Assembly (NCBI GenBank): GCA_948567375.1
Contig: OX419760.1
Span: forward strand, 13,268,001 to 13,332,000
Source of the DNA: Lunularia cruciata
Lineage: Eukaryota; Streptophyta; Marchantiopsida; Lunulariales; Lunulariaceae
Length of the DNA: 64,000 nt
Direction of reading: 5' to 3'
Part shown: in pieces, positions 17,123 through 47,115 of the stretch
How positions within the stretch are numbered: the stretch's first letter is position 1
Layout of the letters: every line of letters begins with the position of its first letter
Made by a program: the position numbers and the translations under genes
The notes under the pieces: model-generated
Told to the model about the DNA's origin: nothing
What the model saw: the letters and a program-made list of their open reading frames with translations, nothing else
The model's database searches: none

Positions 17123-17810
17123 TGTAACACCCATTTGTGCATGTGTGTGGTATTGTGATATTTAGCTTGGTATTGCAAATACTTAAGAGATATTATTTAT
17201 ATAGAGATAAAGGATGGTTCTACATTAGTCATGATTAGCTAAAGCTAGTCATAGCTAAGATAATGGAGACCTTACTTTTAGAGGATGTAGAAAAGATGAG
17301 CATCATTATTTTGGATTCTAGTGTATTGACTTGGTATTATTCCTAGGTGTTTGGCTTTGGGGAAAGAGTTGAGAACTCTTGGGCCCGCAAACCTTTTTGT
17401 TTTGGATTCTTTTATAGTCCAAGGATAGCCCATGTGAAGGAATCCTTGACTTAGTGGTTGGGTCAAGATAAGATCACATGCTTAGTGGAACATACCCATG
17501 TGGATGGATATTTGTTTATACTTTTTGACTTTACTTGACTTTTATCCTAGTCACTTGAGTTACTATGGTAAATAATAACTTTAGTGCATAATTATTTCAT
17601 AAGTATATAAACAAGGGGTGAGGAGGTATCATCATCCTTTCATTTGCAACTATCTCTCTCTCATTGAGTTCTCTAATGAGCAATGTCTTGAGTCTTGGAG
17701 TGTTAGCCTTGGAGGAGTATGATGGAGTTGGAGTTCCTTGCCTTCTTAGTCCATGGTGTGCTACCATAACATGCATCAGAGGTTCATCTTGAGTGAGAGA
17801 AAGGCCGGCA
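17123..17810 (+). mobile_element. Third LTR of the OTA family (LTR3)
   Basis: Starts TGTAACACCC and ends about GCCGGCA. It is visibly more diverged from LTR1 and LTR2 than these are from each other, so it belongs to an older copy. It keeps the TATA-region sequence deleted in LTR2. Its flank (aaaaa) does not match the flank of LTR1. Confidence 0.9.
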
Positions 17811-26350: not shown

Positions 26351-26888
26351 CTTGCAATACAAAATTAGTGTCAATAAACATACACATAAATTGATAATTT
26401 TTATGTTATTTTTAGTATGCAATATGTGGAAAAAATTGTCAAGCAAAGAATTCTAAACACTAAGTTTTGATAGTAGTAAGAACAAAGGCAAACATCATAA
26501 GAAAATGTAACATTGTAAAAATTTGTAACACTTAATTCACAATTGCTAGAAGAGTACAAATGAAGCAAGGTGGACTCATAGCACATTTTCTGCTTGTGTG
26601 TAGTTCCTCTTGCCTTGACATATCAAAAGAGAAACAAGAACCATAGAACTTTAGTGATGTCATGGTTTGGCTCATTTCAATCCTAGTTTCATTGTAATAA
26701 AGAGGATTAATTGCAAAAAGCACTTAACACTAACAAGACTCGAGCACCTAATAATTGCAAGCACTCTCTCTTGTGTATATCTCATATGTGTAAAAAAATC
26801 CTTAGTGCTCAAAGAGGGTCCATTTGCAAGCTCATGTATGTAACATTAAACTCTAACACCCACATCCATATTAATCTAAGAGCAAGGT
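26351..26888. other. Unassigned spacer
   Basis: AT-rich DNA with short minus-strand ORFs and no recognisable domain or repeat edge. Confidence 0.4.
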
Positions 26889-26994
26889 GTCATGCGTATG
26901 TACATCGCTACACAACATACATCATTGTCAACATCATACACTATAGAAGCAAAACTCACACATAAGTCATACATAGACTCTAAAGTGCCACAAT
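26889..26994 (-). repeat. Extra copy of the first 105 bp of the copy-A LTR
   Basis: Nearly the same as 27,444-27,552 (for example catcgctacacaacatac, catcattgtcaacatca, cacataagtcatacatag, actctaaagtgccacaat). In element orientation it follows the end of the 3' LTR, so the LTR start sequence appears again beyond the element. Confidence 0.75.
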
Positions 26995-27550
26995 AATCAG
27001 ATTGTTTACCACTCTCAACTCAACTCAACTCAGATCAGTACTTGATCTGTCACTCTATAAACTGCCAACAACTAGGCACTAATTACAGTCAAGCCACACC
27101 CACTCCAGCATAAAGAATCCAGGTGACTCTCGACGGCCTATGTCCACCATAGCCAAGAACTCAAAGGCTCAACATCAGAGAAGTGAGCTCTCTGAAGCTA
27201 CACTTTGAAAATATACCCCTTGGACTTGAGCTAGGTCTGAACCCTAACGGTCCTGCTGATAGCACACTCGATGGTGCAAACGGTGCAAAGTGATGGTGGG
27301 CCCCACCATGAAGTTAGTACCCCAAACACAAAATCTGACCATCGGAAAGTAGTCTATGAGTAATTGCCAAAATACCTCTAACTACTATCATTGGAACTCC
27401 AATGTCCGAGCATCTAGATGCGACACTACAAATGACGTTGACAGTTGTCGTGCATATATACATCGCTACACAACATACATCATTGTCAACATCAAACACT
27501 ATAGAAGCACAATTCACACATAAGTCATACATAGACTCTAAAGTGCCACA
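26993..27550 (-). mobile_element. Copy A 3' LTR
   Basis: In element orientation it begins TGTGGCAC just after a purine stretch and includes a first 105-bp block (27,444-27,550) plus a 450-bp block (26,993-27,443). The 450-bp block matches 36,287-36,736 nearly base for base. The 105-bp block has a counterpart before the copy-B LTR at 46,657-46,763. Confidence 0.82.
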
Positions 27551-27572
27551 ATTGCCCCTTAGCTGGCGGTTA
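27551..27572 (-). other. Copy A polypurine region
   Basis: In element orientation, ccagctaaggggcaat precedes TGTGGCAC. The corresponding site in copy B (46,639-46,652) is a clearer purine run, gggaggggagtgg. Confidence 0.5.
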
Positions 27573-27721
27573 GGTCCCTCTAACTCCAGATAGCCATCTA
27601 CTCTAAGTACATGGTATACCTATAATGGGCAAAGATCAAGAGGCCGGGTGGTATGGAGCCTCATTGTTAGTTGTCTGGTTGCAATCTATACCATATAAAG
27701 AATGAACTAGCTATAGGTCAA

Positions 27722-28060
27722 GTATATCTAGGACATAACCACTATCCTTGAGGAACCACTATGAGAGGAAGATTCATACATGCCATATGCCATTCTCTCA
27801 AACAACTATCACACACTAACATAGTAGCAACTCCACCAAAAGAGCCACATAGCGTACACCTCAAGCCTGCACGTACAAGTGCCAAGCTTGGGTCCATAGT
27901 ACCATTAATGTATGGGAGGTGGCATGGTGCACAATTAGGCACATGATCCTTCCAAACAACACCATCACATCCTTCTAACACAAGGACTCCAGATGGCAAA
28001 ACCTCATGCACTCTCAAGATAGTGCGGCCTGTCAAACATCAAGTGTCATTGGTGTTGTCT
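27722..28060 (-). pseudogene. PHD-type zinc finger downstream of integrase, one stop inside
   Basis: The minus frame 28,035-27,742 encodes 97 residues. A short beta-rich region (ILRVHEVLPSGVLVLEG, then VWKDHV), like the end of an integrase, is followed by a zinc finger. Its spacing is C60-X2-C63-X11-C75-X2-C78-X4-H83-X2-C86. After a stop at position 98 the same frame gives W-L-C-P-x-Y, that is Cys101 and a position 104 changed from Cys to Tyr. C-X2-C, C-X2-C, H-X2-C, W, C-X2-C matches the PHD finger pattern, including L-V-C-D-S-C and the W-H-x-x-C core. PHD fingers usually read histone H3 tails, so a targeting role like that of chromodomains in chromoviruses is inferred. Confidence 0.82.
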
Positions 28061-29260
28061 GCTATAGATATACATAGTCTCTTGGATGAAATCAACGGAT
28101 CAAGAGTCTATAACCTCCTCCTCAAATGGTAGCATAGTGTAAAGTATCTATATGCTGAGCAATTGCCAAGTTCTCAAAAGCCATCGCAATCACTCTCTAA
28201 AAGATCTCTGCCTATTGAGAACATGCGCTTATCCATACATCAAGGTCATCTAAGTTCAAAACTACAATAGCATCTCAACAAATGGCTATAGGTAAATCTA
28301 GATCTCATCCATAGAGTAGAAAGTACGGAGAGAAGGATGCTAAGGAGGCTTGCCGGTTGAACCAATAGCCCATGGCCAACCAAGGTAATTGGAGATCCCA
28401 ATCTCCCAAGTGGCCTCTCTGCAAACCATACTTTTGCAATCCTCTCTTCACCGTCTGAACCACTCTCTCTGCTAAGCCATCTGCCTTAGGGTGATCTCAA
28501 GAGGTAGTACAATGATCAATCAAAGCCTTGTCACACAAGACCTGAAACTCCTCCAAGAACTTTGTACCCTGATCAGTCAAAACCTCAGTTGGTGCACCAA
28601 AATGACTAAGAACTCGATCCAAGAACGAGTAAGCTGTCCTTTCACTAGACTTGTCAAGAAGTGCCACCAACTCAATCCACTTGGAGAAGTGCTCCACCAT
28701 CACCAAAACAGATCGATGATGTCACAGTCAGCGATAAAGGTCCAACAAAGTCTAAACTCCAACGGTAACCCAACCCCATGATCGGTAATGGGTGTAATTG
28801 TGGCGTAGGAGCATTGAATGATGCTCTAACTCGATCACAAACCACACATCTGACAACAAACTACTATACCTCGGTCTGCATACCGCGCCACCAATTATGA
28901 GTCTAGAGTAAGCTATATGTACGCTTGACTCCAAAATGTCTTAGCTCCTCATGAGCATGACAGACCAACTGTTGTCTCTGAGATGGAAGTGGTACTACTC
29001 ACACTCTACCATCCTCCCATACACGCAAAAGGTGTCTGCCCTCCAATCTGAACCATCGGGCTTGCTGAAGAACACGATCTCTCTCCTTGGCCCCAACTAT
29101 GCCACCCACAACACCAGTGTGAAGATAGTCCATCACTAAGACATCATCATGAATGTCTTGCTGAATTGTACCAACATCTTCACTCTTTGGATTTGTGACC
29201 TCAATAACTCTTCATGTATGTGTTGAGAGAGATACCACCAAAGCCTCAGAAAATATACAT
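28061..29260 (-). pseudogene. Copy A integrase, broken
   Basis: The zinc-binding H-H-C-C region is at about 28,830-28,965 (HAHEELRHFG, then CVVCDRV). The catalytic core has Asp in SLDFVGPL (about 28,740-28,765), Asp45 of the 28,706-28,497 frame in LTDQGTKF, and Glu in ADGLAERVVQ (about 28,460-28,487). All three catalytic residues survive, but stops separate the pieces. A C-terminal stretch links to the PHD region. Confidence 0.85.
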
Positions 29261-29421
29261 AGAAAGGCAGATGCATGCTAACCTGGCACCATCTCCTCAT
29301 CTGTCTCACCATGCCAACATGCTCCGGTCTGATCCTTTTGGCTGGGACATGGGTTTCTACTCAATCCATCTACATCATGGTTCACCACTCTAGGTCAGTG
29401 AACAACCGTAAAATCATACTC

Positions 29422-29760
29422 CTATAAAATCAGAGCCCATTGTGCAAGCTTCCTTGAAAGCTTGTCTGACTCCATCAACCACTTCAATGGCGAATGATCA
29501 ATGATGAGAATGAAAGGGTTACCAAATAGGTAACATCGGAAATGTGCCACTACCCAAACTGCTACCAAGCACTCTCCCTCATATGAACTATACTTTGCCT
29601 CCGCTGAATTATTGGAGCAACTAGCATTGGCCACCACAAACTCCTTCCCCTCATCATGCTGGGTGAGCACCGCTCCAAGCCCCAACATACTCCAATCAGT
29701 ATGAACCTAAAATGGTCACCCTCTGATCAATCTCCTCAAAATAGGAGCAGATGTCAACCT
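29422..29760 (-). pseudogene. Copy A RNase H, mostly open
   Basis: An 88-codon open frame shows GLGAVLTQHDEGKEF, an EGECLVAVW segment with the catalytic Glu, and DHSPLKWL with the later Asp. The first catalytic Asp lies in the HTDWS sequence just upstream. It is the best-preserved pol piece of this copy. Confidence 0.85.
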
Positions 29761-29879
29761 CTCCTTGAGCTCCACAAAAGCTCTCTCTGCTCATCTCCCC
29801 AACACCACTCTTGTGTAAGCTTGGTCAGCTTTGTCAAGGCCTTGGCAATGGCACTAAATCCTCTAACATAGCGGCAATA

Positions 29880-30640
29880 AAAGTTTGCCAACCCAAGGAA
29901 TGCTCACACTCTGCTCACATCCGTAGGCCGAGGAATATGTGCAATAGCCTCCACCTTGGTCTGCTAAACACCAAGTCCTCCAGGGTAGATAGTGTGACCT
30001 AAATACTCAACCTGATCGTGGAAGAACCTACACTTCCCAAGATGTAATTTGAGTCCATGAGATCTCAACCTCTCAAACACCCCCAACAACTATCTCTCAT
30101 GCTCCTCCACAAAGTGCTATAGACCAAAATGTCATTAATATAGCACCGAGCAAAATCCAATCCAGCTGGGATCTTATCTATGACCCTCTAGAACTCAGCA
30201 AGAGCGTTCTTTAACCCAAACGGTAAGAACTTCCATTGATATAACACATCTTTGTCGTGAGGATCAATAGCCCAAAATGTTGTCTTGGACTTATCCTCCT
30301 CTCTGATTGGCAATTGATGATATCCTACTCAAAGATCCAAAGTACTGAAGATCTTTGCATGCCTAATTGCATCAAAAATCTCCTCCGGTGTAGGCATGGC
30401 ATACCGATCAGCCATGGTCTATTGGTTGATAGGACGGTTATCTCCACACATCCGTCTATCTGTGTAGTTTCCATGCATATCCTTCTTGGTTGGCATCACT
30501 ATTGCTGATGCATTCTCTCCATGTGAAATCTCCACCAAACCAGCCTCAAAAAGATCACTACTCCGGCTCTGAATCAATGTTCTCTCCATCTCACTATATC
30601 AATAAGGACGTTGATAAATTAGTGTATCGCTAGTCAGCTC
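29880..30640 (-). pseudogene. Copy A reverse transcriptase, broken and with a mutated active site
   Basis: Minus-strand motifs: a segment like VEISHGENASAIVMPTKKD at about 30,480-30,540, then YAMPTPEEIFDAI, FWAIDPHDKDVLYQWKFLPF and the catalytic box, which reads YIND (30,131-30,142) instead of YIDD. Copy B has the intact YIDD at the same place. Several stops are present. Confidence 0.85.
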
Positions 30641-31189
30641 AATCCGTATACCAAGGCCCTTTAGAGCACCCAAATCTTTCATCCTGAAGGCAAAACAACT
30701 TGTGTGGCTCCTCAAGAACCTCCAAACCCTCCGTCTTTCCTCTCAATAAGCTTGGGTCCAAGATCTGGCTCCCAAGTATCCTTTGTAGCTATAGTAGGAG
30801 TGGAAGACGTACTGACTGGCTACTACACTAGGCCCTTGGGAGCAATAGTGTCATGCCCCCGACCACTAGAGGTCCCAACCTCTGTGTGAAAAACTCCTTC
30901 CACTCTCATTGCAAGCTCCACACGTCTTCTAGCTTCATCCCAAGTGGACCAAGAGTGTAATCCAAGTAGCCCACGCTCACCTGGATGGACTCCAAGTAGA
31001 CTAGTCTCCCTAGTAGCTATTGGTTGTGTCCCAAGAATACCATGTCCACTTGGTCCATCGCCCCCAACATGTGCTTGAATCGTCTCGATCGGCACATAGC
31101 TCACAAGTGTTTGAGTGGTGATACCTATCAAGCGCATCCTACACTACTCTGCCAAGCCAAGGCTCATAATCCAGGTCAAACAGTTTAGG

Positions 31190-32225
31190 CCTAACCTAAC
31201 ACTTGACGCCTGTATGCCTTTGACATTGCTAGAATAGTGGTGATACCGATGTGAAAACCCATCACCCGCTCTCTCTCATCAACGTTGGGCTCCACCAATT
31301 GCTGTAACTGTGAGTCCCAAACAAGTCCAAGTCCTCCCTCTTGAAAAGCATGAGAGCCTAGGAAACTCATGAGTGTGGGAAATACAACTCTAGACCGTCC
31401 AACTAGGTTCACCACTACCATAGGTGACCTATCAGCCACTACCACTATCTGAGACTTACGCCCAACATCCAAGATATCATCAACAAGGATATGGTCAAGT
31501 CGCTGAATCCCATCATAAGCACACTATAGAACCTCTCTGGGTAAGAGGTTTGTCCACCAAAGACAAAGATGATGAGCCCGTGATCCCACTCGGGCTTCAT
31601 CTAATACTTTAGGTCCCATCCAAGAATAGACATGATGTGTACTCACCACCACTCTAGTGCAAGAATCACCCATCAAAGGCATGTTCTCCACAAGGTAAGC
31701 TGGAGAAACGGACTGATGAACCTAAAGATGTCGTAGTATCTATAACATCTCCCAAAACACACCAAAACAAGGATCCTAAAGACCCAAACCTCTACCAGCA
31801 TGTGTATGACCCTGACATGGCCATCCAGAAATCACCAAGTGAATAGGCCCATGTTTCTCCAGATCATGCGCCCCCAGTAAGGAAATGTCTGCTAGTAGGA
31901 CCTTCTGGTAACCTTTGACTGTTGACATTGATAATAACTTCGGATACCAATAGGCCAAGTGTGCCACATGATGTAGAGAGACTCGCTTGGCAGTCTCATC
32001 TCTCTCTACATACAAGTGCCTTTGTACTTATATACCCGTCTGTAATACCATAGCTAGTCCGGTGCTAATCCCACCAAACAACTCTAATAGACATATCCCC
32101 TCTACTGGATATTGCCAAGCAATGAGTGTGGTATCCAAAGGTGTCAAAGCAATCAACTTTAGAGGCTCATCCTCACACTCATCTCCTGATGGTATGAAGG
32201 CTCCACTCCAAGCCTGCTGCACCAA
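31190..32225 (-). pseudogene. C5-cytosine DNA methyltransferase domain in copy A
   Basis: In one minus-strand frame, crossed by a few stops, the ordered motifs of cytosine-5 methyltransferases appear. Motif I, the SAM-binding LLELFGGISTGLA, is at 32,050-32,090. Motif II-like YVERD follows at about 32,000-32,012. Motif IV, VISGWPCQGHTHAGRG, is at 31,790-31,835, with the catalytic Cys at 31,815-31,817. Motif VI, YLVENMPL, has ENM at 31,680-31,688. A motif VIII-like segment, GSRAHHLCLWWTN, is near 31,550-31,590. A motif IX/X end, DERERVMGFH then RRQVLG, is at 31,190-31,290. Family knowledge: these enzymes transfer a methyl group from SAM to cytosine C5 through the Pro-Cys thiolate. The domain sits between protease and RT, so it would be made as part of Pol. 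This copy is inactive because of the stops. Confidence 0.87.
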
Positions 32226-32528
32226 CTGATCTGCATGCTACTGTAATGCCTCCTTTGAACTCTACAATGGAACATCCAAGGTGGATGGAACAATCCCACT
32301 TGTACTCCAAATCCAAGTGATCTCCTTTGGTACTGGAGTATCCTCTGCATGGGCATTCCCCTCCAACAAGTCACCAGGCCAAGTAACTACACCACTAAAA
32401 GCTAAAACTGATGTTGCCATGGTCCTTGACTATATTGAGCCAAGATTGCCACTATTGAAGCGTATTGGTAGGCGACATACCCGTCCCTCACCAGATTGCC
32501 AACTTGGTCTATAGGAGGCTGTCTCTTC

Positions 32529-32840
32529 CTAATAGTCAATGCTGAAATCCATGGGGTATAACATTGCTCTCCCAACTAGCACATCATATGACTCAGCTAT
32601 TGTCGCAATAGCCTGAGCTCTCACCACCAAGCTATCAGTGGGATGACCAGGCTGAACCTCGACAACAAGCTCCCCACGTGTGATGTATTGTGTCAAACTA
32701 CCACCTAGAGATGTTTGGATCTGAAATGGACACCTCTCCACATTGGTCTTCCGTAACTCCAGACCGACAAATGTAGCCTTCCCCAACATAAGAGGCTACG
32801 CACCAGAGTCTAACAAGACTCTTTGTGGTGTATAGACCTT
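32529..32840 (-). pseudogene. Copy A aspartic protease
   Basis: The minus strand reads RVLLDSGA at about 32,798-32,822, an intact catalytic D-S-G-A. After a stop, an 86-codon open frame (32,789-32,529) ends with SYDVLVGRAML, the usual second half of a retropepsin. The stop sits just after the active site. Confidence 0.78.
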
Positions 32841-33299
32841 CCCTAAAGGTCCTACCAAACAGAAAATCCCCCTCTAGTTATCCAATAGGACAACACGCGG
32901 TGTGAATTGTGCTCTCTCAAAGGCCGGTCTAGCTAGCAACTCCTCTAGTCTAGTAGCTACTACATGCCATAAACCACTGGTTGCTGAATGGATCCCATGC
33001 TCCTCAACCAAGTCAGCTCCACTACCAACCACCTCTGCTCTAGTAGTAGGAACCACATCATCCCTACTCTCACACATTGTGGCATCTAACCGGAACAATG
33101 AGGCTGGGTCAACTCCCAATGTAAACATGTCATTGGCCAAAAACAAAGGATGCCACATAATCAGCTGAACCGCCCCCAACATCATGCTAGACTCAATTTG
33201 TGTAGTAGCAGGTGGTTGACTAGCAAGTAGTCCATCATGCCCTCCATCACCACTTACCACACCTGCATTGGGATGTCTAGGAACCATGGATGTCATCTA

Positions 33300-34740
33300 T
33301 AATGCCTCAGATAGTATGAAAGACTGGGGAAGTCTGACCTGTCTCCTAACCTCTCCTCTTTGTAGATCCCACTCCACTGATGCTCCTCTAGGCTCTGGAG
33401 CACGTACTGCACTCCTAGTCACTACTGCAGATGCATCCACCTGTGCTGCTCCGCACATGAAGTCCAAAGCATCTCTATCACCAGCATATAAGGTGGAAGC
33501 CTCAACACCCAAATTTGATCTCCTCTAAGCAATGGCCATACAAGCCAATCTCTGCTCCAACACTCAATCCGAGTAGCCATAGTTGTATCAAAAGTAAGGG
33601 CAGGTACTACACTCCTACTAGGTGTAGATCCTCTACCACCACCTCTACCACCTCGTCCTCTATGAACTGGAGCTCCTCTACTACCTGCCATAGCAGCCCT
33701 ACCACTCCGTAACTCCAAGTGTAGGTCAAAACAGCGGTCACTAGTGTGACCAAATCTGTGGCAATGCTCACACTGCCTCTGTGCTGGCTATGATGCACCC
33801 GAGGTATCTGGTACACTACCATGAGTACATTCTCCCCAATGGTGAGGTCCACCACAAGTCCAACAAGCAACACCACTACTCACTGACTGTTGCTTACCCA
33901 AAAATGAAGGTAAGGGTCTAACTCCACTAGGCCCTTCACTCGCTCCATAGGATTTGGGCTATCCACTCTGTCCTCAAAAATCAACTGGGTGTGGTGCACT
34001 CTATTGCACTTTAGAAGAAGTCACAGCTGTGGATGAGGTCTCCCTACCAAATCCAAATGTCACCACCCTCTCCTCTACCATGTTGAGCTCAATACGCTCA
34101 GCCAAACCAAAGATTACTGCCAAAGTGGGCAAAGTAGCATGCAACAATGTACCATCACAAACTCTACATTGTAACTCCTTGTCCAATATCCTATAACAAA
34201 ACTGGACTGCCTGGGCCTCAGTAACTCTCTGAGTGAAACTGATCAGCCAACTCATGCAAGTGTATGCCTCACGTAGGCTCTCTCTAGCCTTCCGCTAGAA
34301 CTCTTGCAAGCTCCTCAGCTTGTCAATCCGCACTCCCTGGTAGTTCTGCCTCAAACATTGGAAGAACTCCACCATGGGGTTAAACCCCGGTACCACACCA
34401 CCTCCTATAGTGGTACCTCCACTTGTAGTAACACTATCTCCAGCTAGTGCACCTCCACTAGCTCCACCAACACTACTCGAGCTAGAACTCAAAGGTACAA
34501 CCAATCTACTCCTGGCCACCAAACTTGAAGTGATAGAGACATAGTTTGGAGACCAATACTGTCTCTATAACTTGATCTTCTCCAAATGAGCTCTCCTAAA
34601 CTCATGGTAGTCATCCATCGGCAGACCCTCCAGATGTTGAAACAACCCCTTCCATGCCATGAAGGGTGTAAACAAAGTTGGGTTCCGCATCTACTGCAGA
34701 TCATACCAATTATCGACTCCTAGATGAAGTCATCCAACTC
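33300..34740 (-). pseudogene. Copy A gag with two zinc knuckles, broken
   Basis: Capsid-like text in several frames: LFTPFMAWKGLFQHLEGLP near 34,620-34,680, FNPMVEFFQCLRQNYQG near 34,330-34,390, and RESLREAYTCMSW near 34,250-34,290. Two Cys/His clusters follow: CWTCGGPHHWGEC near 33,830-33,875 and CEHCHRFGHTSDRC, a perfect CX2CX4HX4C, near 33,735-33,780. A Gly/Arg-rich stretch (GGRGGGRG) follows. It would form particles and bind RNA. Confidence 0.78.
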
Positions 34741-36286
34741 AATGGTAACCATTGTACCTGAGTAACGCCTAGGGCATTTGGAGGCCCCATTAATCTTGTC
34801 CAAGTCCCACAACAATGGTGCGGATACACCAAGTGTCCTCTCAACCGAATCAGCTCCTATATCAAACTCCAACTCAAAGTCAATCTCCTCTCTCATTGGG
34901 ACCTAAGATACAAGCTGATACCAAGTGCCACTCCAAGTAAACCCACTGGGTACTGCAAGGCTATCTCTTCTGAATCGCCAAAGAATTCCATTGTGACAAA
35001 GTAACCACAACAACAAACCAGAACCACCAACTACAACCGCAAGTCGCAACCACAAGTACCCCACCAAGTGCCAACACCACCAAGTGCCAATACCAACTAA
35101 GCACTACCCACTAATGTAACTCTAACTGAGATAACTACACTAGGAGAAAGTGCAACCTATAACCTGCCATCATAACATGCACTCTCATGGTCTATAGATC
35201 ATCACTTCTTGCCTCACCGGAGAGAAACAAAGGTAGTCTGATTGGTCATCACTCCAGCCTCACTACCGAGAGCACACCAGAGCACCAACGCTCAAAAGTC
35301 AAGGCACCTCACACAAACATGGTGCACAAATAGGAAATAGAGAATGGAGGGGGTCCAATCACAAGAAATCTAAAAAAAACCCTCCATCTCATAAAACAAT
35401 ACGGGATTGACTCTGCCACCATTTGGCATTTGATATAAGAGAAGTTCGTATCTAAGTCCTAAGCTACTAGGATCACCAAGAATGGAATCAAACTGCCTCT
35501 CCTAGGCAAAGCTACATGTGTATAGATAACAGTGGCACAGTCACTAGGACAACAAGTGAGGGTGGACAAGTTAGCTAGGGCACTAGTCTAGGAACAGGAG
35601 ATCTAAGGGTCAAACCCTGTTGTGTCCAATCTAGCAAGAAAGGCAGATTTTGTCAATGACCAAGATCTACTCTAAACTAGCAAGCCTCACGCTAGTAAGC
35701 TAGCCTGGGCCTTCGTAGCCTCTCATAGCCCAAAGCCTCGAAATACCAAAATTTAGCCAAATGAGGCCTTTCTTCTTGCTTCTTTGAACCTCCTCCAAAA
35801 TTTGGCAAAACTCCTCCAAACTTGCAAAACTCCTCCAAATCTGGCCAAACAATGAAACTCCTCCAAATCTGGCCAAAATTTGATGTAAACCCTAAGTTAA
35901 CTGACTACCAAATCCCCCGCTAACTCTTCACTCAAGCTAAATTGAAAACATAGGTTTCTCCAAATCACAAATTCACTAGAATAGCTTCACAACTCCACAT
36001 TCAATTTTACTTTCTGAGCCCAACTCGCAACAAATTGGTCCTGCCTTCACCTCTTGAGCTCAAAATCATAACCACCACTCAAAATTTGCTCCCTCTTTGC
36101 TCAAAAATTGGCCAGTGCTTTTGCACACCGTCTGCCTTATTGCCAAATCTACCTCAATTGAATGAGCTTCTGCACACTAGGGAAGAACTGAACTTGAATC
36201 GAGCTACCAACAATCCACCAAGCTTGGAGATACCTCCAACACTCAAAGTTCTTGCACCCAATTTCCCCCTAACCTCACTTCTTTGA
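34741..36286 (-). other. Copy A leader region with a short tandem repeat
   Basis: This 1.5 kb between 5' LTR and gag is non-coding. On the plus strand, 35,785-35,880 contains three to four imperfect units of aactcctccaaatctggcc. The same leader is recognisable in the fragment at 37,560-38,949. No clear tRNA primer site was found next to the LTR. Confidence 0.6.
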
Positions 36287-36736
36287 TGTAATTAGATTGT
36301 TTACCACTCTCAACTCAACTCAACTCAGATCAGTACTTGATCTGTCACTCTATAAATTGCCAACAACTAAGCATTGATTACAATCAAGCCATACCCACTC
36401 CAACATAGAGAATCCAGGTGATGCTCGTTGGCCTCTGCCCACCATAGCCAAGAACTCGAAGGCTCAACATCAAAGAAGTGAACTCTTTGGAGCTGCACTT
36501 CAAAAGTATACCCCCTGGACTTGAGCTAGGTCTGAACCCTAACAGTCCCGTTGATGGCACACTCGATGTTGCAAACGGTGCAAAAAGATGGTGGGCCCCA
36601 CCATGAAATCAGTACCCCAAACACAAATCTGACCATCGAAAAGTAGTCTATAAGTAACTGCCAAAATACCTCTAACTACTATCACTGGAACTCCAATGTC
36701 CGAGCATCTAGATGTGACACTACAAATGGCGTGACA
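36287..36736 (-). mobile_element. Copy A 5' LTR (450-bp block only)
   Basis: Matches 26,993-27,443 closely, bounded by tgtaattag and gcgtgaca on the plus strand. The 105-bp block that precedes this part in the 3' LTR is missing here, so this LTR is probably truncated at its promoter-distal end. Confidence 0.85.
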
Positions 36737-37559: not shown

Positions 37560-39410
37560 ATTTAATCAACTTCCATGTCAAACTCTAAATTGGAATCAAT
37601 CTCCTCTTGCACTAGGACTTGAGATATGCACCACTCCGTTTAAACCCATTGCATACTACATCATGATACCCAAACCACAACTATAACCACTAAGTGCCAC
37701 CACCAAGAACCACCTACTAATGTAACTCTAACTATGATAATTACACTAAGAGGAAATGCAACCTATAAAGTGTGATCATAACACGCACTCTCATGGTCTA
37801 TAGGTCATCACTTCCTATGTCATTAGAGAGAAACATAGGTTATCTAACTGGTCATCTCTCCAACCTCACCACCTAGAGCACCAATGTTCTAAATATCAAG
37901 GCACCTCATGCAAACATGGTGCACAAGAAGTAGAGAATGAAAGAGGTCCCAATCACAAGAAATTGAAATGATAACCCTCCATCTCACTAATCAAAACTGG
38001 ATTGACTCTACAACCATTTTGCATTTAACATAATAAGAGTGCTTATCTACTCCTACATTACAAGGATCACCAAGGATAGGATCAAACTACCTCTCTTAGC
38101 CCAAGCTACATGAGTATATGTATCAATCTATCAGTCATTATGACAACAAGTGAGGGTGGACCAATTGGCCAAGGCACCAATCTAGGAACCAAATATTTGA
38201 GGTTCAAACCTTGTTGTGTCCAATTTTGAAGGTGGGTAGATTTTGGCACACAACTACCAAAACTTGACTAAATTGGCTAGCTATACACCAACAAGCTAGC
38301 TTGTTAGCTTGTTTAGGCCTTCATAGCCTCTGTAGCACACAACCTTATGCCTCATAGTCTCTAAAGGTCTTTTTTAAAGCCTTTTTCCTTGCCAATTTGA
38401 ACTTTCTCCAAATATGGCTAACCTTCACCAACTTGAGCACTAGCAAGGGCAATTTAGGAAAACTAGAGAAACCTCCAACTCTTGAAAACTTCTATCAATT
38501 TGACCTCTAAATCTAGACAACCTTTGCCAATTTGACAAACCTTCATTATAGTTGGATGACTACCAAATCCTTTGCCAAATGTCAAATCTGGCCAAATTGA
38601 GAGGATGAGACCTCCAAATCTCAAATTTGAAGGGATGGGTTCTCAAATCCAACTCAAATTTTGCACTTTGGGTTCAAGTTGTACCAAATTGAACTTTATT
38701 TCACCTCCTTGGGCTCAAATCAAACACCCTTTGTCTTAAGTTTACTCAATTTAGAGAAATTTGGGTAGCACTTCCACACACAATCTGTACCACTATCAAA
38801 TCTATAGCAAATCAATGCACTCAATCCACATAATTGGATGAAAACTTGAGTAACAACAATCATAGATACTAGTAATCACATCAGGTTAGAGATACCACCA
38901 ATACACTTAGTTTTGGTACTCTATTTCCTCTTCATTCTCACTTCTCTAATATAATCAATTCAATCTTAACTCAAATTTCACTTATTCAAATCACACTCAA
39001 CTCAGATAAAAAATCAATCCACAATTCAATGATCTATCAACAACATGCATTAATTATAATCAAGCCATACTAACTCTAGCTAAGAGACTCCATATGATGC
39101 TTGCCAGCCTTTGTCCCCCATAGCCAAGGATTCAAAGGCTCAACATTAGAGAAGTGAGCTCTTTAGAGCTGTACTTTGTAAGTACACTCCTTTGCTCAAC
39201 TTGGATCTCAAATCCTAATGATGTTATTGATAGTGCAATGCAAGTGAAGGTAGGTTCTATGGTATGATTATTAGCCCTTACAAAAAATCTGGCGACCCTT
39301 AAGTAGTCTCTAAGCAACTACAAATATAATTTTATTGCCAAGATTATCACTCCAACTTAAGCAAACTAACTTTGGGACTTCAAATGTTATGAAAATGACT
39401 ACTATTAAAA
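37560..39410 (-). mobile_element. Inverted leader and 5' LTR fragment of the methyltransferase Gypsy family
   Basis: From 37,575 the sequence follows the leader of copy A (counterpart from about 34,870) and then the LTR at about 38,950-39,410 (counterpart 36,287-36,736), in the same minus orientation. Shared words include agtcaatctcctct-like, atagccaaggattcaaaggc and gctcaacattagagaagtga. It contains no pol. It directly adjoins the 5'-truncated copy B in the opposite orientation, which suggests the two are one rearranged element. Confidence 0.78.
38950..39410 (-). mobile_element. LTR of the inverted fragment
   Basis: Diverged but alignable with the LTRs of copies A and B through ctcaactcag, the atagccaaggat region and gagaagtgagctcttt. 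Confidence 0.75.
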
Positions 39411-39429: not shown

Positions 39430-39950
39430 CAATGCTTGACTTACACCTATAGTTATGGAAGCAAGAAGTAAAGAAACCATGTGTCATGGAGGATGAGTTG
39501 GTGGTAGAGGAGCCACACTTATTAGGGATACAATAATTACCCTTGCTTTTGATATAGCCATGGCTACTTGGATTAAGTAATTGAAGCAAAGATTGGCTAG
39601 CATAGCTATAGCTTAAAGAAAATCAAATTTAGGTGTTGAAGCTTCCACCTCTCATGTTGGTGATAGAGATATCCTTGACTTCATGCATGGATCAGTAGTG
39701 GTAGATGCATTTGCCATTGTGACTAAGAATGAAATGCTTGCTTTTGAGCCTAGAGGAGCATTAGTGAAATTGGACCTATAGAGAGGGGAGGGTGGTAGAC
39801 AAGTCAGACTTCCTAAATCCTTCATATTTAAGGTACTATAAACTTCATCCATAGCTCTTAAATGCCTTAGTGCATATGTGCCACATGGATATAGAAGATA
39901 GGATGGACCAAATATAGGTTAACCACCTACTTCTACCAAGGCCTTGTCCA
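39430..39950 (+). pseudogene. Copy B gag 3' part, broken
   Basis: The plus strand corresponds to copy A 33,650-33,300: a Gly-rich gag end (GGRGA-like), then ATWIK, GVEASTSHVG and DFMHGSVVVDA. Stops are frequent. Confidence 0.6.
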
Positions 39951-40299
39951 GCATGATGTTGGGAGTGGTCCAAATCAATTATGTTCTCTCCTTTTGTTCT
40001 CAACTAGTGATTTGTTTACATAAGGAGTTGATCTAACTCTAGTGTTTTCATTAGCTGTCATACTTTGTGTGAGTAGGGATGGTGTGGTTTCTACTTTTGG
40101 TGCAAAGGTGGTTGATGGTAGAGCCAACTTAGCTAAGGAGCATGGGATGTATTCTAGTACAAGTAGCTTGTAGTAAGCAACAACAACTAGATTGAAGGAA
40201 TTACTTAATAGACTTGCATTTGAGCAAGCTAAGTTCACAATTGTCTTATTGGACAAATAGAGGTAGGATTCTTTTAATTTGGTTGGACCTTCAAGGAAT

Positions 40300-40420
40300 C
40301 CCATGGAGTGTCTTATTATACTTTGGTGCTCAGCCCCTTATGTTTGCAAAGGCTGCAGTTCATGGTCTTGGGCTATAGAGACCAATGATGATAGGTGACT
40401 ATTTTAGATCCATATATTTT
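40300..40420 (+). pseudogene. Copy B protease, active site lost
   Basis: Near 40,313-40,345 the frame reads VLLYFGAQPLM, where copy A has LLDSGA. The catalytic Asp is now Tyr and the Ser is Phe. Confidence 0.65.
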
Positions 40421-40979
40421 TACGAGGTTGTTCTACACAATACAACACATGTAAGGAGTTATTGTTTAGTTTTAACCCAATCATCCAACTAATAGTTTTG
40501 TGATGAAAACCAATGCCATTGCAACAATAGCAGAGTTATATGACTTGTTAGTTGGTGGAGCAATATTATACTCTAAGGGTTTAAATATTGATCATTCAGC
40601 AAAGACAATTTACTACAGGCCAAGTTTGCAATCGGGTGATGGATGAATATTATGTTGCATACTTGTATGCTTCAATAATGGTAGTCTTGACTCACTATAG
40701 TCAAGTACCATGGCATCAATATCAACATTTATTGGTTCCATTACTTGGCCTTGTGAGTTACTTGAGAGGAATAATTATACAAAAGATACTCCAATACTAG
40801 AGGAGATCACTTGGATTTGGATTATGAGTGGAGTGGTTCTATCCACCTTGGATGTTTCATTGTAGATTTTTGACAAAGAGTTGTAGCATCATGCATATAG
40901 GTTGGTACACCAAGTTTGGAGTGGAGCCTTTGTACCACAAGTAGACCATTTGATGATCCTCTAGAGCCTATTACCTTAT

Positions 40980-43040
40980 CCTCTTTGTATACCATACCTA
41001 TTTCTTGGTAGTATATAGTGGGGGAAGTATTCCTACTAGATTTGTTTGGTGGGATCAACATTAGACTAGTTGCAGTATTGTAGGCAAGAATATGTATTCA
41101 AAGGTACTTGTATATGGAGAGGGACAAGAATGCTAGAAAAGTCTATCTATATCATGTGGTATAATTGAAATTATGTTATCTTGGTGTTGATATATCACGG
41201 CATATTGATGTTAGCAATTAGGGTTACTAAAAGATCCTATGATCAAACATTTCCATGCTCAGGGTAAATGATCTAGAGAGACTTGGTACTTTTTATTTGG
41301 TGATTTCTAGATGGCCATGTTAATGACATACCCATGTGTAGGCAAGAAAGTTGTGTCTTGGAGTGGGGATACAAGATGTTATGAGAAAAGGGGAATTCAA
41401 TATAATAAGCAAGATAGAGTATATTCTTGCCTATAGTTCTTGCATGGTCTGCTATTTACTTGGCTCAGGGAGAAGATGTTGATGGGGTTCCCATAGCAGT
41501 TTGTAATTCCACTCAGATATGGGAACCTCTTGGAGATACTTACTCTTGGAGATAACTCTCAAGTTGGTCACCCTTGCAAGCTCTTCAGCCTTGTTGATAT
41601 GGTCTTTCATGCCTTTTTTGGGTAGAGTCTTATTTACTAGTTCTCTTATACACCATTCTACTTAGTTAGATAAGATGACAATTACATGAGTAATATTAAT
41701 ACATATACATGAGTAGTATCAATACACATACATGAGTAGTATCAATACATGACACAATAGGCAAGACTCAATAAAAATCACTCTTACATCTTATCATTCA
41801 AAAAATTTAGGTAGAGTAATGGCTTGTTTATTACCCTCAAATACTTAAATCTCTGGCCAACATCAATAATACATCCTTAATATATGCAAACTTGGTTCCT
41901 ATAGTCACAATGATACTCTCTTCTTGTAGGTAAATACAAGGTTATGAGAGATAAGTGAATCTACCATGAAAGAATCTCCTATGATAAATCCTTAGTTGGA
42001 AGATTACCCTCTAGTGGGAGAACATCCCACTTAAATAGCTACTCTAACCCTAAAAAGAATTTCTATCTTCCCTTAATTAGTTCTCTTCTTATAGCCACCA
42101 CCTCCTTGCACCTTGCACTATAAATGCCAAGGAGCTCTCCTCCCTTTGATATTCCTAGCCAAGATGCAACTACTATGAATATTGTTAGAGCACCGCTTAA
42201 GGCTTAATTACTGCCTACCTCTTTTTCTTTAATATAAGAACTTAATAAAAGAGCATCCATACTTCCTTAACTAGACAACCCATAGAGGAAGATCTCAAAA
42301 CACTTCTTCCTTTCTCTTGCAGCCTTGTGCATTGGATCCTACAATGCTTCACCATCTTGCACTACTATCTCATATATGGTTTCTTATCCTTAGCCTAGGT
42401 ACCTTTGCCCAGTCAACATTGTGTTGGCCAAGGATGGGGTTCATAAGATCCCAATTTTGGTATTTTTTGGGAGATGCTATGTATACTAAAACATCTTCAA
42501 GTTCATCAAGTCATTTCTCTAGCATACATTTTGGAAAACATCCCTTTGATGGATGACTCTTGCACACAAGTGATGGCAAGTACGTATCAAGTTTGGTCTT
42601 GGATTGCCTCTACCATGTTGTTGGATGGCACTAGAGTTGGATCTTGAGCACTATTATCTATTATTTGTCTTTGGTGGACAACCTTTTTTCCTAGAGAAGT
42701 TTTATAGCAGACCTATGATGGGATTTAACAATCAACTCATCTCATTATTGATGATATTCTAGATATTGAGTGCTAGGCTCAGAAGGTGGGAGTGGCTTGT
42801 AACATTGCCCAAAGCCACTTAATCTACACTCATGAGCTTCTCAGCTTCCCATGCTTATTAAGAGGAGGTCATGGACTTGTTTGGGACTCACAATTATAAT
42901 AATTGGTGGAATTCAACATAGATGAGAGAGAGCGGATGATGTGTTTTCATGCCAATATCACCGCCACTTTAGTAGTATCATGGGCATCTAAGCATCAAGT
43001 GTCAAGTCAAGCTATGGACTTTAATTTTTTGACCTCAATT
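40980..43040 (+). pseudogene. C5-cytosine DNA methyltransferase domain in copy B, interrupted
   Basis: Colinear with the copy-A domain. Motif I (LLDLFGGI) is at 41,033-41,056. A motif II-like YLYMERDKNA follows at about 41,108-41,137. Motif IV (LVISRWPC) has its Pro-Cys at 41,315-41,320; the Gly of copy A's SGWPC is Arg here. After an insertion, a segment FGIFWEML leads to motif VI LENIPL, with ENI at 42,534-42,542. Motif X-like DERERMMCFH is near 42,920-42,950 and a QAMDF end near 43,010. Having the motifs in order in two independently decaying copies shows that the domain belongs to the family rather than to one chimeric copy. Confidence 0.82.
41347..42426. mobile_element. Insertion inside the copy-B methyltransferase, possibly a solo LTR
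   Basis: Copy B matches copy A up to about 41,346 and again from about 42,427, and the 1.08 kb between has no counterpart. The flanks carry ggcaag (41,341-41,346) and gccaag (42,427-42,432), a possible target duplication with one change. Inside are a TATA-like cactataaatg (about 42,116-42,126), a short repeat of acatgagtagtatcaatac near 41,690-41,750, and no coding domain. A solo LTR of another element would explain these features. Confidence 0.5.
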
Positions 43041-43599
43041 GTGAGCCTTGGATTGGTTGAGCATTGTAGGATATGCTTGACAAGCATCACCACTTGAACA
43101 CTTGTGAACTCTATGACTATCAAGACTATTCAAGCACATGCTAGGGGTGACAAGTTGAGTAGAAATATATTCTTGCTACACAACTAGTGGCTGATACTAA
43201 GAATGGTATACTTAGGTTATATATATACTTGGATTTCACTTGGGATATACCCTTGGTCTACTTGGGACCCGACTAGAAGACATGTGGAATTTGTAGCCAA
43301 AGTAGAGATAGTTTTGCACTTTGGGGTTGTGGATTCTAGCAATTGAGAGCATGAAAAAATTGCTCCCAAAATCCTGGTGTGGAAAATAGTCGATGCATCT
43401 TACAACTCTATAGTGATTATGGAGGATATTTGGGAGCCAAACATTGGACCCAAGCTTACTAGAGGAGAAAGATGGAAAGTTTGTATATTCTTGAGAAGCT
43501 ACACAAGTTATTTTGCTATCAAATTCAATATGAAGGATTTGGATGCTCTAAAAGGACATGGAATTTGATTGATTTGACTAGTGATACACCAATATTTTA

Positions 43600-44380
43600 C
43601 ATCCTTATAAATTGAAATACATGGAGAGAGCCTTGGTTAGGAGTCGAGACCTTTTTGAGGATGGTTTGGTGGATATCTCATATTAGACAGCATGCTTCAA
43701 CCATAGTGATCCCAACCAAGAAGTACATGCAACTACATGGATAAGAAGATGTATGGAGATTATTGCCATATCAACCAATAGACTATGGCTTATTGGTATA
43801 TATGCCTACACCAAAGGATATCTTTGATGAAATTGGGCATACAAAGGTCCTAGTACTTTGGATATTTGAGTAAGATACCATCAAGTGCCAATTAGAGAGG
43901 AAGATAAAGCCAAGATTAATTTTTGGGCTATTGATCCTCATGATAAGGATGTATTGTATCAATGGTGATTCTTACCATTTGGACTAAAGAACACTTTTGC
44001 TAGAGTTCTAGAGAGTCATGGACACTATTCTAGCAAGATTGGGTTTTACTTGGTGCTATATTGATGATATTATGGTATATGGATTTAATGCGGAGGAGCA
44101 TGAGTGATATTTGTTGGAGATGTTTGAGAGATTGAGATCTCATGGACTAAAATTACATCTTGGGAAGTGTAGATTCTTTGAAGAGCTTGTTGAGTATTTG
44201 GGTCACACTATCTATCCTTATAGATTTGGTGTTTAACAAACCAAGGTGGAGGTTATTGCATATATTTCTTGGCCTACAAATGTGAGTAGGGTGCAAGCAT
44301 TCCTTGGATTTGAAATTTTTTATTGCCAATATGTTAGAGGATTTAGTGCAATTGCCAAGGCCTTGAAAAAGCTCACAAAG
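43600..44380 (+). pseudogene. Copy B reverse transcriptase, broken but with intact YIDD
   Basis: The frame shows FWAIDPHDKDVLYQW near 43,920-43,966, then FLPFGLKN-like text, and the catalytic YIDD at 44,057-44,068, followed by the FLGFEIFYCQYVRGF connection segment near 44,300. Stops occur throughout. Confidence 0.82.
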
Positions 44381-44439
44381 TTAAAAAAGCTTACCCATGA
44401 GTAGTTTTGAGGAGATGAGTAAGAGAGAGCTTTTGTAGA

Positions 44440-44880
44440 GCTCAAAGAGAAGCTTTCATCCTCCTTTATTCTCAAGTGAGTGATCAAAGGATACCCATTC
44501 CAAGTTCATACTAATTGGCATTTATTAGGGCTTGGAGTAGTGCTCATCCAACCAAGTGATGAGAGGAAGGAGTGTGGTGACCTATGCTAGTTGCTCCAAC
44601 AATTTGATGGAAGGCAATATAATTCATATGAGGAAGAGTGTTTAGTAGTAGTGTGGGCGGTAATACAATTTTTATATTACTTGTTTGGGAAACTCTTCAC
44701 TCTAGTCACTAATAATAAACCATTGAAGTGGTTGAGGGAGTTGGACAAGCTTTAAGGAAGCTTGTATAATGGGCTCTTATCTTATATGAGTACGATTTCA
44801 TGGTTGGTCACAAACTTGGAATGGTGAATTGTGATACATATGAGTTGAGTAAAAACCCATGTACCAACCAACATGATAAG
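44440..44880 (+). pseudogene. Copy B RNase H, broken
   Basis: Corresponds to copy A 29,760-29,400: HTNWHLLGLGVVL-like start, EECLVVVWAV-like middle, and a TNNKPLKWL-like segment, each in broken frames. Confidence 0.75.
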
Positions 44881-45039
44881 ACAATAACATGTTTGAATGG
44901 TGAGATAGATGAAGAGATGGTATTAGGTTGGCATGCATACACAAAATATGTTTGTTGACTAGGGCTCTAATGGTATACTTATTATTATAGATAGGATTTG
45001 TTGAGATTATTGATCCAAAGTGTGGAGATATTAGTATAT

Positions 45040-46120
45040 GTCAGCAAATATTCATTATGACATCTTGGTGATGGACTATCTTTGCATTGGTATTGTAGGT
45101 GGCATAGTTAGTGTCAAAGAGAGAGACCATATAGCTTCAACAAGCTAGATAGTTTAGATAGGAGGAAAAACATCTTCTTTGGATATGAGAAGATGGTAGG
45201 GTGCAAGTAGTACACCTTCTATCTTATAGGCCACAATTAGTATGTTATGCTGATGAGGAGCTAGGAAATTTTGGAGTGAAGCATACATATAGCTTACTCA
45301 ATAGTTATTATTGGTGGTAAAGAGTGCAAACTAATGTGCAACAACTTGTTGCCAAATATATGGTTTGTAAGCAAGTTAGAGCACATCATTCAATGCTCCT
45401 ATGTTATAGTTACACCTACTACCTATCATGAGGTTGGATTACTACTAGAGTTTGGACTTTGTTGGACGTTTACTATTGACTATGAGACGTCATTAGTATG
45501 TTTTGGTTATGGTAGAGAACTTCTATAAGTGGATTGAGTTGGTGATACTTCCCGAGAAGTCTAATGAAAGGACAACTTATTTGTTCTTGGATTGGGTTCT
45601 TAGTTGTTTTTGTTCTCTAGCCAAGGTCTTCACTAATCAAGGTACAAAGTTCTTGGGAGAGGTTTAGGTCTTGTGTGACACGACCTTGATTGATCATTGT
45701 ACTACATTTCAAGATTACTTTGAGGCAAATGGTTTGGCAGAGAGAGTTGTCTAGATTGTGAAGAGAAGATTGCATAAGTATGGTTTAGAGAGAGGCCACT
45801 AGGGAGATTGGCATCTCCAGTTACCTTGGTTTTCTATAGACTATTGGTTCAACTAGCAAGTCTCTTTAACATTCTTATCTTCCTATATCTTATTCTATGG
45901 ACAAGATGCAAATTTACATACAACCATTTGTGATGGTGCTATTGTAGTTTTGGACTTAGATGATCCAAAGCCATGGGTGTACACATGTTCTCAACTAGCA
46001 AAGATCTTTCAAAGAGTGATATTGATGGCCTTTAAGAACTTGGAGATTGCTCAACATTAAGTTACTTTACGTTATGCCATTATTCAAGGAGGAGGTTGTA
46101 GATCTTTGATCTATCAACTT
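45040..46120 (+). pseudogene. Copy B integrase, broken
   Basis: The zinc-binding region is near 45,250-45,380. The core D-D-E region lies at about 45,455-45,760, with DYETSLVCFG in place of the first Asp segment, TNQGTKFLGEV near 45,633-45,665, and NGLAERVV near 45,730. Several catalytic positions are changed. Confidence 0.75.
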
Positions 46121-46139
46121 GGGTGATTATGTATATCTA

Positions 46140-46500
46140 TAATAGATTTCACCAATGACTTTTGATGTGACTTTAGTTTGCACTATCTTGAGAGTGCATG
46201 ATATTTTTCCTTCTAGAGTCCCCATGTGGAAAGACATGATGTTGATGTTTGGAAGGATCATATGCTCAATTGTGTACCATTGATGGCATGATGGACCCAA
46301 GCTTGGCAATTGTAGAGGTAGGCTTGCAGTGTATGTTATATGGCTCTAATTGTGGGGTTGCTACTATGTTGGTGTGTGATAATTTTTCTATAGGATGGCA
46401 TATGACATGTTTTATTCCTTCTCTCATGTGGTTCCTCGAGGGTAATGGCTATATCCTTGATGTTCTTGACATCTTAGTTTATTTGCTCCTTAGGTGTTAT
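46140..46500 (+). pseudogene. Copy B PHD finger, degraded
   Basis: The frame at 46,249-46,521 encodes a region colinear with the copy-A finger: LQCMLYGSNCGVATMLVCDN, then GWHMTC. The first Cys, third Cys, His and the Cys after it are kept, while the second has become Tyr and the fourth Phe. In another frame the end reads V-V-P-R-G-stop-W-L-Y-P-stop-C, with the stop at the same position as in copy A. The finger is therefore a shared family feature. Confidence 0.72.
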
Positions 46501-46638
46501 AGATTGCAGATAGGCAATTAACAATGGTGCATGATAGCACCTGGCCTCTTGATAGCCCCCGGGCCTACCATACGCCATACTATATGCTTAGTCTAGATAA
46601 CTATTTGGAGTTAGAGAGGAACCTAATTGCTACTATAT

Positions 46639-46652
46639 GGGAGGGGAGTGGT
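46639..46652 (+). other. Copy B polypurine tract
   Basis: gggaggggagtgg lies a few bases before TGTGGC. It marks the 3' LTR start at 46,657 and supports placing the 105-bp block inside the LTR. Confidence 0.65.
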
Positions 46653-46656
46653 TGAT

Positions 46657-47115
46657 TGTGGCATTTTACAATTTGTGTGTGACTTCTTATATGAGTTGTG
46701 TTTCTATGATGTGTGATGTTGATAGCGAGTATGTTATGTAATAAAGTATATATGCACAATAGTTGTCACAAAATTTATAGCACCTAAGTTAGTTTGCTAG
46801 GACATTGTACTAAGTATCTTGGCAGCCTCAATTTTATCACTAACTACTCATGGGTTACTTGGTGGTGGTTGTCTACTACATAAGGGTTTTTGATTGTACT
46901 GCTAGAGTCACCCTTTGCACCATTCATAACATCAGATGTGTCACTAGGGTTGGACTCCTTGGCTTCCCAAGGAGGAGTATACCTTGAAGTGGAGCTCCAA
47001 AGAGCTGACCTCCTATGTGTTCATTATTCTAGCTCTTGGCTATGGTTGATAGAGTTAACAAGTGCATACTTGGATTCTCTTTGCTAGAGTGGGTGTAGCT
47101 TGACGAGTGTAAGAG
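46657..47115 (+). mobile_element. Copy B 3' LTR
   Basis: Begins TGTGGC with the 105-bp block, then tgtcacaaaat (46,764) and the main block, alignable with 36,736-36,287 in reverse complement. The far end fades at about 47,110, so the terminal CA is not certain. Confidence 0.8.

Follow-up and report, generated by a model that had tools for sequence, protein, structure and literature searches.

A Ty3/gypsy-type retrotransposon family of Lunularia cruciata almost certainly carrying a captured DNMT3-type cytosine-5 methyltransferase

The DNA considered here, called the window below, is a stretch of 64,000 nucleotides of the liverwort Lunularia cruciata (GenBank assembly GCA_948567375.1, contig OX419760.1, positions 13,268,001 to 13,332,000, forward strand). 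Its minus strand holds a broken retrotransposon, copy A, whose parts are listed in Table 1. Judged from the sequence, copy A is almost certainly a dead member of a Ty3/gypsy-type family that acquired a de novo cytosine-5 methyltransferase of DNMT3 type. An earlier sequence-only reading had proposed such an enzyme between the protease and the reverse transcriptase (RT) of a Ty3/gypsy-type element of a green plant, and this has been borne out by homology. The position between protease and RT holds, but the enzyme is not simply a part of Pol, as it belongs to a Gag-side open reading frame (ORF) that stands ahead of a leaky-looking UAG. The Ty3/gypsy affiliation is supported by the order RT-RNase H-integrase, by a DDE integrase recognised by Pfam and by short duplications of the target site. 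The two full-length identical long terminal repeats (LTRs) expected of such an element were not found at copy A, where the repeats are split.

The methyltransferase motifs lie on the minus strand where the sequence-only reading had placed them, the catalytic Cys codon included. The order I-IV-VI-VIII-X is present, together with the catalytic Cys and the E-N of motif VI. In copy A, the stretch 32,225-31,190 is interrupted by five internal stops and closed by another one. The Pfam check suggested for this domain gave a divided outcome: copy A alone, with X at its stops, scored E=0.012 and 15.5 bits against PF00145, below the cut-off of 22, whereas seven of the eight scanned relatives passed (E 3.8e-5 to 2.3e-14), as did ORF1 of the genome copies L009 and L010. 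The eighth relative, the partial protein P0036, had no PF00145 match. Because Pfam on the broken domain alone is too weak, homologs were used for the assignment. At E<=0.01, 41 relatives came out of a protein search, with the best one reaching 7.4e-130 and 60% identity over the whole query, and this homology excludes a chance origin of the motif order. Chance motifs, or a fragment of a host gene lying between repeats and outside any element, would agree with the failure of copy A at the Pfam cut-off; nevertheless, the domain occupies the same place in more than 20 copies and in several species, which refutes this explanation and leaves it a negligible probability. A predicted structure model (mean pLDDT 61.4, pTM 0.68) carries no weight in these conclusions.

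The terminal repeats are direct and split. The 5' end carries only unit A (A1, about 450 bp) and lacks unit B, and the body is followed by B1 (110 bp), A2 and B2, with two bases between B1 and A2 in the copies inspected. Of the earlier bounds, 26,993..36,736, the end at 36,736 stands, while the other has been moved out to 26,888, because an extra repeat unit of about 107 bp lies outside the previously described repeat at the 3' end. A 4-bp target duplication flanks the start of A1 and the end of B2 in all nine readable copies of the 11 tried, the ends of L016 and L027 not being readable. DIRS elements possess a tyrosine recombinase and make no target duplication. The Pfam matches of ORF2 in the present family include no tyrosine recombinase and contain an rve integrase instead. 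Thus the split direct repeats are shared with DIRS elements, and yet, because 4-bp duplications stand at the element ends, this DIRS-like layout bears the mark of a DDE integrase.

Table 1. Parts of copy A and position of its relative, copy B, in window coordinates.
Feature	Position	Strand	Remarks
Copy A, whole element	26888..36736	-	about 9.85 kb; 5' TGTCA, 3' GACA; CCTT 4-bp target duplication on both flanks
A1, 5' terminal repeat unit	36289..36736	-	90.7% identity to A2 across 450 bp
ORF1 region (Gag-protease-methyltransferase), broken in copy A	30826..34803	-	mapped from L009 and L013; first-Met place of the open L009 ORF1 to the base before UAG
Gag CCHC zinc knuckle CEHCHRFGHTSDRC	33731..33772	-	motif only
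Protease active site LLDSGA	32799..32816	-	motif; Pfam protease at the matching place only in relatives P0054, P0060, P0081
DNMT3-class cytosine-5 methyltransferase domain	31159..32225	-	canonical motif order; stop-broken
LLELFGGIST	32,090-32,061	-	methyltransferase motif I
YVERD	32,012-31,998	-	methyltransferase motif
GWPCQG	31,826-31,809	-	motif IV
Catalytic Cys codon of motif IV	31815..31817	-	TGT; motif reading
ENM	31,688-31,680	-	motif VI
SRAHHLCLWWTN	31,583-31,548	-	methyltransferase motif
UAG 3' of methyltransferase, candidate readthrough stop	30823..30825	-	place common to 23/23 distinct genome copies
Reverse transcriptase (RVT_1)	29988..30463	-	mapped from L013
RNase H	29416..29987	-	Pfam matches of L013/L014 ORF2, mapped
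Integrase, H2C2 zinc-binding domain then DDE core (rve)	28488..28983	-	Pfam matches of L013/L014 ORF2, mapped
PHD finger, Pol C-terminus	27721..27858	-	Pfam PHD E=9e-9 in copy A, X at stops
B1, inner copy of second terminal repeat unit	27443..27552	-	93.6% to B2
A2, 3' copy of terminal repeat unit A	26994..27443	-	repeat comparison
B2, outer unit B copy, 3' end of element	26888..26994	-	repeat comparison and target duplication
Copy B, older relative of copy A	39495..47103	+	71-74% identity to A in long matches; opposite orientation

ORF1 comprises Gag, protease and methyltransferase and, measured between stops, is as long as 1,428 codons. Across 24 family loci, which represent 23 distinct places (L006 and L028 coincide), the aligned position after the methyltransferase is a UAG without exception. 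Of the 23 places, 19 continue with the six bases CAGCCA, two with CAGCTA, one with CAGTCA and one with CAGCTT, and the whole motif UAG-CAR-YYA is kept in 22. In plant viruses, this sequence is known as the type I readthrough motif (PMC3542737). Beyond the UAG, the RT, RNase H, integrase and PHD finger continue in the frame of ORF1 wherever that frame is open. The first Met of ORF2 comes 49 codons past the UAG, and no stop occurs in the 931 codons of this interval (19 loci x 49). Gene models of Marchantia and Sphagnum that cross the UAG place (P0045, P0047, P0050, P0063) hold similar protein around the ORF2 Met, where the predictors may have put introns to cross that point. In several branches of relatives, the proteins end shortly past the methyltransferase, at matching places (P0054, P0055, P0087, P0088, P0095 and others).

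Since a same-frame stop stands in a known readthrough context, it is likely that ORF1 gives a Gag-protease-methyltransferase product and that a minor fraction of translation reads through the UAG, which would add RT-RNase H-integrase-PHD. Several points weigh against this proposal. The genome copies are closely related, so that 23 UAGs do not amount to 23 independent events. The ends of the database proteins may be contig ends, and the sequences are read as proteins in which a stop codon is not visible. The ratio of nonsynonymous to synonymous polymorphism (pN/pS) over the 49 codons past the UAG is 1.00 (0.33-5.66) and hence uninformative, and copy B has TGG at the aligned place, in an uncertain alignment. 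The enzyme is assigned to the Gag side because ORF1 ends at the UAG and RT-RNase H-integrase follows in frame. Readthrough, if real, would therefore mean that the enzyme is produced at Gag dose, as the UAG arrangement predicts.

The domain is not confined to copy A. In the 566-Mb assembly containing the window, at least 123 PF00145 matches were found, scored out of 2,161 candidates. The majority reached 30-38 bits, and many of them lie in long open frames. Host-type genes make up at least four of the 123 (L001, L002, L004, L029), and L003 has no match to the family profile. Twenty stretches of about 10 kb, picked mostly for long frames, were examined, and the methyltransferase domain occurs in all of them and is open over the whole model in 11. 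The genome search recommended by the sequence-only reading retrieved both further copies and copies with a fully open enzyme. The share of 11 in 20 is nonetheless too high as a genome-wide estimate, because the sample was picked mostly for long open frames; it exaggerates the intact fraction among genome copies. No relative turned up in viral contigs when these were scanned with the family alignment.

The pN/pS of the methyltransferase is 0.40 (bootstrap 0.26-0.66; 11 open copies), similar to that of the protease region (0.43; 19 copies) and of RT-RNase H (0.35; 7 copies, omitting an ORF of a different element with 36% identity, or 0.60 with that ORF). The integrase has 0.46 (0.23-0.97) and the PHD finger 0.27 (0.03-1.60). 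From this similarity to the protease region and RT-RNase H, the enzyme appears to have been maintained by selection along with the other parts of the element. It is improbable, then, that the domain is an inert passenger, or that it now binds nucleic acid or methylates RNA with no DNA methylation. Some sequences would suit a passenger, for instance GWEC in place of GWPC before the catalytic Cys in Closterium P0081 and several unnamed relatives, and ASPC in P0084. Nevertheless, the catalytic Cys, the motif VI E-N and the motif VIII R-x-x-W are at least 90% conserved over 51 aligned rows, and pN/pS is well under 1.

Two further arrangements were seen near or among the genome loci. An 866-codon ORF of a different gypsy element, with a 36% identical RT, lies near a methyltransferase-bearing copy (L017:7304-9901). 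At G000:C8:50247675-50252522 and G000:C10:49243062-49247909, an RT-like match, a distant integrase-like match and a nearer integrase-like match stand in a row, possibly as nested elements or as an element with two integrases.

For the class question (METHYLTRANSFERASE), a profile built from 18 family members was run against PDB sequences. It matched 54 sequences, of which the top 29 were all DNMT3A, DNMT3B or DNMT3C, with DNMT3A the best at 1.1e-17. These were followed by two chains named DNA methyltransferase and four DRM2 sequences (best 9.9e-10), and then by DNMT2 and bacterial or unspecified enzymes; DNMT1 or CMT was named in none of the 54 matches. With the same profile, the host DRM-like gene L002 of the same genome displays a permuted motif order, while the element family is unpermuted. 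On this profile ranking and the canonical motif order, the element enzyme is classified by sequence as DNMT3-class and not as DRM. DRM enzymes are marked by the permuted order. A fragment of a host DRM gene was rejected as the source. A bacterial restriction-modification gene was also rejected, since the relatives that bear names are plant elements. In comparison with the DNMT3 and DRM enzymes of plant hosts, the catalytic class is shared and DNMT3 is the closest in PDB, whereas the element enzyme is a single open frame with no motif rearrangement and no accessory host domain by Pfam, as seen in ORF1 of L009 and L010.

The host-type genes L001, L002, L004 and L029 are found in the same genome; in L001 and L004, motif IV reads GFPCQDLS, and these two may be host DNMT3, CMT or acquired enzymes. 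P0092, filed as bacterial (from a metagenome-assembled genome, MAG, of Candidatus Obscuribacterales), groups inside the retrotransposon family, and therefore its MAG bin probably holds eukaryotic DNA.

In the window family, Gag and protease are known from motifs, namely a single CCHC knuckle for Gag and LLDSGA for the protease. In ORF1 of L009 and L010, neither was confidently matched by Pfam, which detected an aspartyl protease ahead of the enzyme in the relatives P0054, P0060 and P0081. At the other end, a PHD finger closes Pol in L013 (Pfam 7.4e-10) and L014 (2.2e-10), as well as in 12 unnamed relatives that align with it. Its best PDB sequence matches are the fingers of CHD4, KMT2D, PHF12 and KDM5. 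Several of these fingers read the unmodified histone H3 tail; no binding is claimed for the PHD of the element. Chromoviruses are Ty3/gypsy elements with an integrase-linked chromodomain. The window family shares with them a histone-reading type of domain at the Pol end, but has a PHD finger in place of the chromodomain and a methyltransferase in addition; no chromodomain was found by Pfam at E<=0.01 in ORF2 of L013 and L014.

The PHD finger bears on where the enzyme might act. Its position 3' of the integrase in both layouts of the wider group described below, and its best matches among chromatin-protein fingers, would agree with an enzyme that acts on host DNA or chromatin and not on complementary DNA (cDNA). 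In that case, the enzyme, produced in excess by ORF1, would enter the nucleus and, helped by the PHD of the readthrough product, mark insertion sites or silence nearby genes and rival elements. This is unlikely, and in the window family it meets the difficulty that the enzyme and the PHD finger are in different primary products unless readthrough takes place.

Copy A has an A1-A2 distance of 0.097 and is about 9% diverged from younger copies. Elsewhere, A1/A2 identity is at least 97% over the available parts in 14 of the 17 copies in which both units could be read (for L010, across no more than 77 bp), and is 96.95% in L015, 95.5% in L022 and 87.2% in L013; three of the 20 copies have no pair. 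Therefore copy A is older than most of the examined copies. Against each of three younger copies, it has lost C to T at about 29-31% of CG, 23% of CHG and 5-6% of CHH sites, and this decay is the scar of CG and CHG methylation. It is no proof of the element enzyme at work, because CHG points to host enzymes.

An explanation that joins capture, readthrough, a particle-borne enzyme, cDNA methylation, host upkeep and decay is moderately favoured as a whole. In this explanation, the ribosome would make the ORF1 and readthrough products set out above, and the enzyme, made at Gag dose, could then be carried in the particle, for and against which the chances appear balanced. On a somewhat less secure footing, it might methylate CG in freshly made double-stranded cDNA, either ahead of integration or during it, with the PHD finger guiding the integrase to chosen chromatin or holding it there. 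The new copy would thereby enter the genome already marked. Host enzymes would maintain the mark and spread it to CHG, and C-to-T change of the kind observed in copy A would then erode the methylated copy. Yeast experiments with the enzymes of other elements bear on this (PMC5890265): isolated SymbioDIRS-Dnmt3 domains methylate CG there; on the negative side, the Klebsormidium enzyme gave no methylation, an outcome on which its authors draw no conclusion because DNMT3B failed likewise.

Methylation could also serve as armour and not as silencing, the enzyme shielding cDNA from a host defence against unmethylated or deaminated extrachromosomal DNA. Purifying selection on the enzyme along with the protease and RT would suit such a role, which was suggested for dinoflagellate elements in the text of PMC5890265. 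According to the same text, elements without a DNMT still transpose in dinoflagellate genomes, and a shielding function is rather unlikely, a shade more so than action on host DNA. Methylation of the new cDNA as an entry mark is the preferred reading.

Among relatives with an organism name are Calypogeia fissa, Marchantia polymorpha, M. paleacea, Riccia sorocarpa and Sphagnum mosses. These nearest relatives, together with the DRM-like host gene and the CHG decay, suggest a bryophyte host. A longer query returned 43 proteins (8,000 candidates scored), including many Marchantia polymorpha models, Sphagnum fallax and Closterium. A further protein search scored 8,000 candidates as well, and the best 120 of its 189 matches were listed; no row among the protein matches listed is named K. 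nitens, most rows being without an organism name.

These relatives fall into two layouts. The enzyme stands ahead of RT in the window family, in Closterium P0081, and also in P0084 and P0106. In P0064, P0067, P0072, P0079 and P0080 (sources jgi, ena, lgn), a related methyltransferase, RT, integrase and C-terminal PHD finger are shared with the window family; unlike there, a single long ORF holds them all, and the enzyme follows RNase H and precedes the integrase. An RT tree was built from 19 rows, among them an outgroup, which was an unrelated gypsy RT from the window. It unites the second layout in one group (support 0.94) and places the window family with Marchantia and Closterium in another (0.65), while P0084, with its enzyme ahead of RT, falls outside both. 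The methyltransferase tree covers 96 of 173 matching rows and was midpoint-rooted, because the host loci, needed for a root on host DNMT3, gave only partial exons, so that it serves for grouping only. P0081 and P0106 stand there weakly on the second-layout side, so that the two trees differ in places. The 17 elements present in both trees nevertheless have correlated distances (r=0.81, permutation p=0.0001). This would be expected if the enzyme had long travelled with the element and been moved, or had been captured repeatedly by related lineages from similar sources.

The sequence-only reading had mentioned retrotransposon-borne methyltransferases of Klebsormidium and dinoflagellates, and such elements were indeed reported from an alga and from dinoflagellates in 2018 (PMC5890265). 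A survey of 2025 repeats the occurrence in streptophytes and dinoflagellates (PMC12344493). The same reading knew of no described land-plant family; correspondingly, none is announced in the titles and abstract openings of the literature searched, in which subscription journals were mostly not covered, and no such element appears in the available text of PMC9033089 or PMC10952607. REM1, a candidate relative, does not fit, as its integrase is truncated and in reverse frame (PMC2774666).

The nearest described system is KnitGypsy-Dnmt3 of Klebsormidium nitens (de Mendoza et al., 2018; PMC5890265). By the text and legend of that article, Ty3/gypsy domains, an intronless non-rearranged Dnmt3 and DIRS-like terminal repeats are shared. 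Its enzyme is in the Pol ORF, whereas that of the window family is in the Gag-protease ORF ahead of a UAG. Its host is an alga and its acquisition was placed in the K. nitens lineage, whereas the window family has bryophyte relatives. The PHD finger at the Pol end and the 4-bp duplications further set the window family apart from KnitGypsy-Dnmt3 as described, and the terms PHD and readthrough are absent from the main text of the article. SymbioDIRS-Dnmt3 and SymbioLINE-Dnmt of dinoflagellates are also retrotransposons with a captured DNMT, but are DIRS and LINE elements of other hosts, and the charophyte case is treated as an acquisition independent of theirs (PMC5890265, text). New here are the bryophyte hosts, including a model plant, the Gag-side enzyme at a shared UAG and the PHD finger, as well as the 4-bp duplications at split repeats, the second layout in unnamed relatives and the selection on the enzyme.

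The broadest proposal is tentative, possible rather than probable. A single capture would have preceded land colonisation and been kept in streptophyte algae, liverworts and mosses, and so would be much older than the published K. nitens-lineage event. Its lineage would be equipped by itself both to write and to read: a DNMT3 writer at Gag dose via the leaky UAG would be paired with a PHD finger as reader beside the integrase, and a DDE integrase would insert the circle-like split repeats, each new copy arriving methylated. If this were true, DNA methylation would be part of the life cycle of the element and more than a host defence. Why a mobile element carries its own silencing mark was left open in 2018 for the algal and dinoflagellate elements (PMC5890265, text). 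Because family members occur in Marchantia polymorpha, which has routine genetics, the question is open to gene removal and bisulfite sequencing of new insertions. In addition, split repeats together with 4-bp duplications blur the textbook border between LTR and DIRS replication.

Other repeats accompany copy A in the window. The methyltransferase of copy B is split by about 1.1 kb of extra sequence at 41,336-42,431, likely a nested insertion. Directly before copy B, a fragment at 37686-39190, on the strand of copy A, matches the 5' part of copy A at 68%; it may represent a third copy, or else copy B with one end inverted. Neither an Rfam scan of the window (gathering threshold) nor a tRNA scan gave any match. 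The ORF 57953-58276 presumably resembles a portion of a MULE-type transposase. Another Ty3/gypsy element, unrelated to copy A and with longer open frames, occupies 8012-17809; its RT lies in the ORF 11,966-13,237 on the plus strand, integrase-like parts were recognised by eye at 13,433-14,935, and three related stretches at 8,012, 15,108 and 17,123 look like terminal repeats plus a partial duplication.

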